A stretch of DNA of 38,429 bases from Sulfurimonas sp. (GTDB taxonomy: Bacteria > Campylobacterota > Campylobacteria > Campylobacterales > Sulfurimonadaceae): assembly GCA_024513425.1 (NCBI GenBank), contig JANEIH010000008.1, positions 1-38,429 on the forward strand, read 5' to 3'. Positions 10,985 through 13,497 of this stretch are shown here, in pieces. The translations under genes were made by a program, and so were the position numbers. The number at the start of each line of letters is the position of its first letter. The first letter of the stretch is position 1. The notes under the pieces were generated by a model. It worked only from the letters and a program-made list of their open reading frames with translations, was not told the DNA's origin and made no database searches.

Positions 10985-11263
10985 CTAGAGACTTCTTAAA
11001 ATAGAAGAGAGAATAACAATAAGCACCTGTAGTGCTATAATTATAATAAGTGGTGCAAAATCAAGCCCATTTAAATTTGTAGAGATAAACCTTCTAAGAA
11101 ATGCATAGGCAGGATTAGTCACTCTATATAAAAACTGGACAATAGGATTGAAAGGATCTGGATTTACAAAGCTCAGTAGCGCAGTAATAATTATAACCCA
11201 AATATATACATTAATTAGCGAGATCACAATCCCACCAATTCCTTGAATAATATCTACTATCAT
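10985..11263 (-). CDS. yggT: YggT-family membrane protein
   Basis: A 92-aa inner-membrane protein with two hydrophobic segments (about 10-30 and 70-90) and the family motif between them: SFVNPDPFNPIVQFLYRVTNPAYAFLRRF. YggT-like proteins occur across bacteria and plastids and have been linked to membrane organisation and osmotic tolerance, but the activity is unknown. Its ATG overlaps the stop of the upstream GluRS-like gene (ATGA), so the two are probably co-translated. Confidence 0.9.
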   Translation of the reverse strand: MIVDIIQGIGGIVISLINVYIWVIIITALLSFVNPDPFNPIVQFLYRVTNPAYAFLRRFISTNLNGLDFAPLIIIIALQVLIVILSSILRSL

Positions 11264-12531
11264 TTTACGATCTTCCTTATATAATTTTTAAGATAATTAT
11301 AGATATCTGCGATATCTGGACCATCTTCTGCATTGGTGAGCAATATACGAAGTGGTGTAACGAAATTTTTATCGACAAGTCCGGTCTTTTTTGTGATGTA
11401 TGCTTTAAAATCATCATATTCCTTAAAATAAGGTGCTTGTATAATTGCTTCTTTCATAGTCGCAACCTGCTTGCTAAAAGTTTTTGGTATATCTTTTGGT
11501 GCAAATATAGATGCAATTTTCTCTTTGAGCTCACATGTCGTTCCTGCTTCTTTTAAGTAGATACGAGCAAGCTCACCAATATCTGCATCAGCAAAACCGA
11601 CATAGCGTGAAAGTTCTGTGGCATCCATGATCTTCATATGCTCTTTATTTATATGCTTTAACATATCTATATCAAAGCGGGTAGGGGAGTTTGAAATAGT
11701 ATTAAGCGTGAACCACTTTTTAGCTTCTTTAAGTGTAAATATCTCACGCAGAGGAGTATTGCCTATTGATATTAAATAATTTAAAATAGCTTCGGGTAGA
11801 TATCCTTGCTCCAATAGCCCTTTTACACTAATTGTATCTTCATCTATTATGGCAGGTATGTATGCGTACTCTATCTTTTTCTCATAGCCAAGCCGATTTC
11901 TAATATGTATCTGTTTTAGAGTATTGTCTCTATGATCCTCACTGCAAACAATCATAGAGATATCACTAAGCATATCATCCACCGCACAGGCAAAGTTGTA
12001 TGTAGGTGTTTTATCTTGATTCATAATGACAAAGCTCTCTATTACATCTGGATCAAAACTTATATCACCTTTTATCTTGTCATAAATAACAATAGACTCA
12101 TTTGGACGGGTAATTCTTACGGTAAAAGGGGCGGTGTTGTCTATTACAAGTTCAGCAGGAAGATTGCGACAAGCATCATCATATCTATATGCCTGTTTCA
12201 TTCTCTTTGCCTCTTGAAATTTTTTCTCAAGCCACTCATTAGAACAGAAACATGAGAAAGCTTTTTTTTCATGAAGAAGCTGCAAAGCCATGGCAGAGTG
12301 AAAACGAAAATTTTTGCTTTGGTATATTACCTGTGAATACTCAATGCCAAAAAGCCCAAAAAGCTCCAAGATTTCTTGATCTCTTCCTTTGGTATCACTC
12401 TCTTTATTAGCATCTTCAATACGGATAACCAAATCTTCTTGACATTGTTTTGCAATAAGATAGTTAAACAGAGCAACACGCAAGTCACCAATATGCATAT
12501 CAGTACCAAGAGAGAATGCAAATCTAAGCAT
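11260..12531 (-). CDS. Glutamyl-tRNA synthetase-like protein with eroded active-site motifs
   Basis: Full-length (423 aa) GluRS architecture: Rossmann core, a zinc-type insertion (C94, C96, Y116, C121) and an alpha-helical anticodon-binding C-terminus. However, the motifs that bind ATP and glutamate are altered. The SPTG segment before HIGH reads SLGT (7-10), although HIG (13-15) remains. RIEDTD reads RIEDAN. The usual VIRGEDH reads IVCSEDH (194-200), losing an Arg that contacts substrate. The KMSKS loop is missing: PAIIDEDTISVKGLLEQGYLPEA (226-248) joins directly. The frame is intact with a good AGGA site. Campylobacterota often carry two GluRS, one charging tRNA-Gln as a step of the amidotransferase route. 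This may be an inactive or repurposed paralogue. It overlaps yggT and follows tRNA-Glu. Confidence 0.82.
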   Translation of the reverse strand: MLRFAFSLGTDMHIGDLRVALFNYLIAKQCQEDLVIRIEDANKESDTKGRDQEILELFGLFGIEYSQVIYQSKNFRFHSAMALQLLHEKKAFSCFCSNEWLEKKFQEAKRMKQAYRYDDACRNLPAELVIDNTAPFTVRITRPNESIVIYDKIKGDISFDPDVIESFVIMNQDKTPTYNFACAVDDMLSDISMIVCSEDHRDNTLKQIHIRNRLGYEKKIEYAYIPAIIDEDTISVKGLLEQGYLPEAILNYLISIGNTPLREIFTLKEAKKWFTLNTISNSPTRFDIDMLKHINKEHMKIMDATELSRYVGFADADIGELARIYLKEAGTTCELKEKIASIFAPKDIPKTFSKQVATMKEAIIQAPYFKEYDDFKAYITKKTGLVDKNFVTPLRILLTNAEDGPDIADIYNYLKNYIRKIVK

Positions 12532-12614: not shown

Positions 12615-12689
12615 TGGTGACCCCTAGGAGAATTGAACTCCTGTAACATGGATGAAAACCATGGATCCTAACCGCTAGACGAAGGGGCC
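12615..12689 (-). tRNA. tRNA-Glu (UUC)
   Basis: The minus strand folds as a cloverleaf. The acceptor GGCCCCT pairs with AGGGGTC including one G-U; the D-arm contains CTAGCGGTTAGGA. The anticodon stem CATGG/CCATG holds the loop TTTTCAT with anticodon TTC, and the T-arm contains the GTTCAATTC motif. The 3' CCA is encoded (12615-12617). Glu-tRNA is also the precursor for haem via glutamyl-tRNA reductase. The GluRS-like gene lies directly downstream on the same strand. Confidence 0.97.
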
Positions 12690-12992: not shown

Positions 12993-13146
12993 GTTGATTT
13001 GTTCCTTATAGATTCTTATTGATTAACATAATGTAAATTCTCTTGAAAAATATCTTCTCTATTTTGCTATTCTGCTAATTAGTTAAGTTGCAGACTCCAC
13101 TCTAATTACTCTTGTTTTACTTGTAAGCATTTTTATAATTTCATTT

Positions 13147-13490
13147 GCAGGCATAGGATAAGCTGAGTTTTGTATTGATAGTATTAATCTACTGCATATT
13201 TTACAATATACCTCTAGCGAAGCAATAGCACTGTAAGACGCTAACCATCTGCTTCTTGCTGCCATGTTGGGTTTACAAGCTCTCTGTGTTGCCACAAAGA
13301 CTGGTGGTCTCTTACACCGCCGTTTCACCTTTACTACTTTTTCCTAAAAATTCAAAGAAAAAGCAGAAGTCTCGTTTCTGTTGCACTTTCCCTCGTATTG
13401 CTACGGCCATTCGTTAAATGGAACATTGTCTTACGACAGCTCAGACTTTCCTCTTGAAAAGTTACTCCCAAGTCACTATCTCCTATACCT
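13147..13490 (-). ncRNA. rnpB: RNase P RNA (catalytic RNA of RNase P)
   Basis: Cleaves 5' leaders from pre-tRNAs. The minus strand carries conserved bacterial RNase P RNA blocks in order: GAGGAAAGTC with a following GAGCTG, CGAGGGAAAGTGCAACAGAAA, GTGAAACGGCGGTGTAAGAG with ACCACCAG, and near the 3' end CTCAGCTTATCCTATGCC. The ends pair as P1: GGTATAGGA at the 5' end with TCCTATGCC at the 3' end. The TATAAT box at 13498-13503 puts the 5' end near 13490; pairing could extend each end by about 8 bases. A long open frame in this strand is a by-product of the RNA sequence. Confidence 0.93.
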
Positions 13491-13497
13491 AAATGAA

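Follow-up and report, generated by a model that had tools for sequence, protein, structure and literature searches.

GluRS2, GlnRS and the routes to Gln-tRNA

The GluRS2 of Helicobacter pylori glutamylates tRNA-Gln and not tRNA-Glu (PMC3927822). Dasgupta and Basu (2014; PMC3927822) recorded GluRS2 together with GlnRS in 6 of 10 epsilonproteobacteria, a co-occurrence which they termed remarkable, and from the patchy occurrence of GlnRS and the obligatory nature of GluRS2 they proposed that the GlnRS was possibly non-functional; the main text of their paper carries no mention of motif loss in GluRS2. Mesorhizobium is the other group for which that paper records GluRS2 alongside GlnRS. A literature search, with most subscription journals outside its range, found nothing further on this co-occurrence.

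Two other systems invite comparison. GluQ-RS (YadB), the queuosine glutamylase of tRNA-Asp, is likewise a GluRS-derived paralog with another role; it has no anticodon domain and keeps its ATP motifs. HisZ is a catalytically inactive synthetase paralog, with a synthetase fold but no aminoacylation. The protein described here, unlike GluQ-RS, has the C-terminal half and lacks the ATP motifs, and, in contrast to inactive paralogs such as HisZ, its inactivation has been repeated many times and is linked to the arrival of a synthetase that takes its place.

The gene at issue lies in a 38,429-nucleotide stretch of Sulfurimonas DNA, all of which was analysed and which is here called the window. We favour, with a probability of roughly two in three (0.68), the reading that it is a GluRS2 inactivated after takeover by a horizontally acquired GlnRS and kept for a non-catalytic role.

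A GltX2 with its fold kept and its catalytic motifs lost

The window genome, 1.35 Mb in 91 contigs and 99.96% complete, encodes three class Ic synthetases: an intact GluRS of GltX1 type on contig C85 (468 aa, with SPTGYLHIGG and KKLSKR), a GlnRS of ~750 aa on contig C15 that ends in a YqeY/GatB domain, and the gene considered here. This gene is thus not the only GluRS of the genome, and the inventory of GluRS genes rules out that it is the sole active one. (The C-terminal domain of the GlnRS is the type of fusion reported for Deinococcus-Thermus.)

The window gene is an ortholog of campylobacterial GluRS2 (GltX2), and so of the same type, by sequence and phylogeny, as the H. pylori enzyme, with whose kind the intact forms share a HIGN-type N-terminus. 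When aligned with GltX1 and GltX2 proteins it is 54–83% identical to GltX2 orthologs and ~35% to GltX1; it groups with the former apart from the GltX1 of its own genome, and yggT is downstream of it, as it is across the order. The AF2 model of the protein has the bacterial GluRS fold (mean pLDDT 89.9), and its best structural match is E. coli GluRS 8i9i (TM 0.83). Pfam matches the catalytic domain and finds no anticodon domain in the window protein, a weak match to which persists in an intact ortholog.

The HIGH-type motif, KMSKS and the glutamate-site residues of bacterial GluRS are all missing from the window protein (Table 1). SLGT stands at residues 7–10 and HIGD at residues 13–16, and by alignment with intact orthologs KMSKR has gone, within a block of 9 residues, from between residues 230 and 231 (junction ~11841/11842). 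The departure from H. pylori GluRS2 is therefore in the KMSKS loop, HIGN, IRGEDH and anticodon-side residues, and in the presence of GlnRS in the same genome. Orthologs of six families also have the loop missing or mutated. An earlier note, made from the window's letters, had described an uninterrupted frame of 423 codons with a complete GluRS fold and a zinc-type cysteine pattern, and the frame, the model and C94, C96 and C121 bear this out; SLGT, RIEDAN, IVCSEDH and the in-frame loop deletion all read as it gave them, and its ribosome site is the AGGAA of Table 1, though such matches are not above chance across the window. It had expected no normal charging of tRNA, and the motif loss leads us to infer the same.

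Table 1. Features of the gltX2 locus in window coordinates
Feature	Position	Strand	Basis
gltX2 ortholog, catalytically degenerate GluRS2, 423 aa	11260..12531	(-)	open frame, ortholog identity, TIGR00464, AF2 fold
SLGT...HIGD (residues 7-16) replacing SPTG...HIGN	12484..12513	(-)	alignment to intact orthologs
RIEDAN (residues 37-42) replacing RIEDTD	12406..12423	(-)	sequence and alignment
Zinc-type site C94, C96, C121 in the acceptor-binding (CP) domain	12169..12252	(-)	conserved in degenerate orthologs
IVCSEDH (residues 194-200) replacing VIRGEDH	11932..11952	(-)	sequence and alignment
Junction of in-frame 9-residue deletion, KMSKS loop gone	11839..11844	(-)	alignment
Anticodon-domain LVDK (LKGK in intact forms), holding K397 (reference numbering)	11368..11379	(-)	alignment
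Shine-Dalgarno-like AGGAA	12537..12541	(-)	sequence; such matches not above chance window-wide
tRNA-Glu (UUC), 84 bp upstream of gltX2	12615..12689	(-)	
yggT, 4-nt overlap with gltX2 stop	10985..11263	(-)	

The equivalog model for bacterial GluRS, TIGR00464, gives the window protein 318.7 bits, above the cut-off of 289.95, and gives an inactive ortholog of family f20 237.9, which is under it. By this model the window protein and two genus relatives are labelled glutamate--tRNA ligase, above the curated cut-off. Identity with GluQ-RS was rejected on a score of 122.8 against a cut-off of 276.7 and on the full-length GluRS-like model. That catalysis persists with another acceptor or amino acid, as a modified-tRNA or non-tRNA ligase, is highly improbable: the Rossmann and CP folds are retained, R3 never varies and R37 and D40 mostly persist, all of which such an enzyme would want, but H13, G15 and KMSKS of the ATP motifs are lost, as are Y178, N179 and R196 in the glutamate-site region, with no consistent replacement, and the score is far under the GluQ-RS cut-offs.

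Loss of the catalytic motifs goes with GlnRS

Across the ~145 genes scored, in Sulfurimonas and in further campylobacterial families, the KMSKS loop is deleted or mutated in 85 of the 87 GltX2 from genomes with GlnRS, and GltX2 is intact in 54/59 from genomes without it. The genus sample was of 100 genomes, one of which (G023) was re-scored as having GlnRS for its 272-aa GlnRS fragment. For those Sulfurimonas genomes with a scored GltX2, the loop is deleted or mutated in 59/60 with GlnRS (deleted 54, mutated 5, intact 1) versus 3/29 without (intact 26, deleted 2, a single R-to-Q change 1), with a Fisher p of 5e-18. For other families of the order the protein is degenerate at 26 of 27 loci with GlnRS versus 2 of 30 without (Fisher p 8e-13), in a sample that is non-random, having been picked partly by low score, and for which GlnRS status was scored separately. 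Sisters are telling: in the Arcobacter-like f9.g61, L119 is intact without GlnRS and L114, L115 and L118 are degenerate with it, and there are further such pairs in f20.g52 (L103, L102), f4.g9 (L137, L113) and f1.g5 (L134, L127).

The catalytic loss is convergent across lineages. With the motif columns left out, the GltX2 tree has 18 state changes and yields 16 independent pairs on supported branches; loss agrees with GlnRS in 11–12 of these and opposes it in 0 (p ~0.001). A single inherited inactivation is ruled out by the same tree. Inactive GltX2 occurs without detected GlnRS in four genomes (G018, G028, G249 and G260), every one of them an incomplete assembly (79–96%), and the G018 contig terminates just upstream of gltX2, where glnS is sited in many relatives. 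The two f7 cases (L121 in G249 and L123 in G260, assemblies 96% and 85% complete) are either assembly gaps or true exceptions.

In GlnRS, HIGH and VMSKR are kept in those adjacent loci that could be read, and its dN/dS is 0.161 between the window genome and its closest relative. The organism group and the YqeY-fused GlnRS are the same as in the co-occurrence reported in 2014 (PMC3927822). However, it is GlnRS that keeps its motifs here and GluRS2 that is degenerate, and the data argue against GlnRS being the non-functional partner.

The presence of GlnRS is the likely cause of GluRS2 inactivation. The ancestral GluRS2 of Campylobacterota, if its activity was that of the H. pylori enzyme as we assume, would have put glutamate onto tRNA-Gln for later amidation by GatCAB. 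A lineage gaining the GlnRS/YqeY-fusion enzyme would make Gln-tRNA-Gln directly, at which point GluRS2 activity and tRNA-Gln binding would be useless or harmful. Deletion of the KMSKS loop, breakage of HIGN and IRGEDH and removal of acceptor-side basic residues would follow, with change of K397 to Glu/Asp in most lineages as part of the shutdown, until GluRS2 no longer worked with ATP, glutamate or tRNA, while purifying selection preserved the rest, chiefly the zinc-bearing CP domain and the C-terminal half with its helices. GatCAB would not be retired with it. GatB is present in all good Sulfurimonas genomes and no AsnRS scores above cut-off in them, which leaves Asn-tRNA dependent on GatCAB. 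That need was considered as the sole reason for GltX2 retention and rejected, since G024 has no GltX2 yet has a full GatB.

Constraint on the inactive protein

Inactive GltX2 proteins have kept their full length. For four degenerate clades the codon model gives omega values of 0.106, 0.151, 0.137 and 0.119, versus 0.040 in intact GltX2, and dN/dS of close pairs is 0.11–0.33 in degenerate versus 0.03–0.08 in intact forms. With frames open across species and omega at 0.106–0.151 a plain pseudogene was rejected, the window copy being at 0.317 against its relative G161. The constraint is domain specific. From intact to inactive forms, omega goes from 0.012 to 0.083–0.159 in the second catalytic segment (145–225), from 0.033 to 0.044–0.102 in the zinc/acceptor-binding segment (70–144) and from 0.087 to 0.093–0.134 at residues 313–384; constraint on the CP/Zn domain is nearly unchanged and that on the catalytic region is relaxed ~tenfold. 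Within the genus the relative site rate of CP is 0.60 in degenerate versus 1.11 in intact forms, and that of the KMSKS region 1.96 versus 0.37. In 88 degenerate proteins of six families C94, C96 and C121 each have a weighted frequency of 1.00. What degenerate forms have lost (H13, G15, Y178, N179, R196–H200, KMSKR, R116, R294, K395 and G396) are the residues needed for catalysis and tRNA contact.

It may be asked whether GluRS2 has simply been functionless since GlnRS arrived and is drifting slowly to loss, with nothing but avoidance of misfolding behind its constraint. Inactive omega is 2–4 times intact omega, the window copy is the fastest of the neighbouring genes compared, and some genomes with GlnRS have reached what would be the end point. 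GltX2 was not detected in f10.g15, f7.g12, G024 and G083; in two f20 genomes it looks broken, and has an in-frame TAG (G136:C1:933633-934577) or is truncated after ~318 of 432 positions (G246:C1:1961764-1962576). Whatever its role is, it is thus dispensable in those backgrounds, and GltX2 decay occurs where selection stops. However, none of the ~60 Sulfurimonas copies in genomes with GlnRS contains a stop, omega stays at 0.11–0.15 over deep trees with the zinc cysteines at a frequency of 1.00, and mere drift would hardly leave the CP domain constrained nearly as in the active enzyme with the catalytic core ~tenfold relaxed. We regard slow decay as unlikely overall, though a need for safe folding could explain part of the constraint.

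When the window genome is compared with G161, the nearest relative, the window copy has a dN/dS of 0.317, the highest of eight genes, the neighbours lying at 0.055–0.162. Polarised changes on its branch are 21.5 non-synonymous to 20.5 synonymous, versus 5 to 15 on the other, so that its constraint is weaker than in relatives and still below the neutral expectation of ~3 to 1. It violates 5 of the 130 columns conserved among degenerate forms. Though the class may be maintained, this copy, in its small genome, could be heading for loss.

For the class, purifying selection on the rest of the protein makes it most likely that a second, non-catalytic role predating GlnRS has been retained, probably as a protein partner. 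A fuller version, to which we give slightly less than even odds, is that this non-aminoacylating function resides in the zinc CP domain and C-terminal half and that each gain of GlnRS selected a targeted shutdown (K397E, KMSKS loss), leaving a pseudo-synthetase; it might serve, for example, as a structural or regulatory partner of GatCAB/AspRS or of the GlnRS machinery.

Charge reversal and tRNA contact

K397 directly precedes the PLR..LTG element, which we take to contact the anticodon in Thermus GluRS. The position is basic in 96% of intact proteins and is Glu/Asp in 79% of degenerate ones, the change being found in families f1, f4, f6, f7, f9 and f20. Other lost lysines turn acidic less often (K154 1%, K290 10%, K109 11%, K385 17%, K395 26%), and the AAA-to-GAA route alone is therefore a poor explanation. 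Parsimony counts 12 K-to-E changes with inferred reversals, a figure that rests on an imperfect tree. The one Sulfurimonas copy with GlnRS and an intact KMSKR, L050, already has E397. The window copy retains K397, and its net charge of −6 is unlike the degenerate mean.

Basic residues R116, K290, R294 and K395 are lost or charge-reversed in inactive forms, K397 goes to E/D, and net charge of the whole protein is −16.7 in degenerate versus −5.7 in intact forms (about −17 versus −6). We infer from these residues that tRNA binding looks lost in inactive GltX2 and selected against. This speaks against two roles put forward in the earlier note, that of a tRNA chaperone and that of a regulator of Glu-tRNA use: a full-length GluRS fold beside tRNA-Glu would suit either, but basic residues on both the acceptor and anticodon sides are gone or reversed, intact loci have the same tRNA-Glu linkage, and this reading is the least probable of those weighed.

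Locus context

The order tRNA-Glu, gltX2, yggT is ancestral, being also found in genomes without GlnRS (L016, L022). That the gene is maintained, as had been proposed in the earlier note, is upheld by in-frame orthologs and dN/dS well below 1; its linkage to tRNA-Glu and yggT is no evidence of a new role, since the linkage is ancestral and also present at intact loci. Further upstream of tRNA-Glu is the RNase P RNA (RF00010, 208.4 bits) at 13144-13491 (-), where a mechanical ORF call (13083-13328) is probably spurious.

In the window the last four nucleotides of gltX2 (11260-11263) are also the first four of yggT. Where yggT could be seen, the two genes overlap or almost do so at 90 of 91 inactive loci and at 49 of 50 intact ones. 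This coupling may help to keep the gltX2 frame. Were it the only reason for retention, with yggT translation needing ribosomes that finish gltX2 and the protein irrelevant, amino acids would not be conserved; amino-acid constraint is thus left unexplained, and with dN/dS far under 1 and domain specific, this account is very improbable.

The glnS gene is between tRNA-Glu and gltX2 in L050, L053 and L066, a position that would fit entry at the tRNA gene, and at other loci it is upstream of gltX2 in tandem or divergent orientation. Functional pairing of glnS and gltX2 was considered as the cause of adjacency. Insertion at the tRNA gene is simpler, because of the loci where glnS is between the two, and in the window genome and G161 the two genes are on different contigs.

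Implications

Public annotation of degenerate GltX2 genes is likely to mislead, at least in some cases via TIGR00464. In Campylobacterota nature has run the same experiment repeatedly, exchanging the indirect route to Gln-tRNA for the direct one, and the outcome shows which enzyme is retired and how. What has been spared in the retired protein points to a selectable non-catalytic function of a GluRS.
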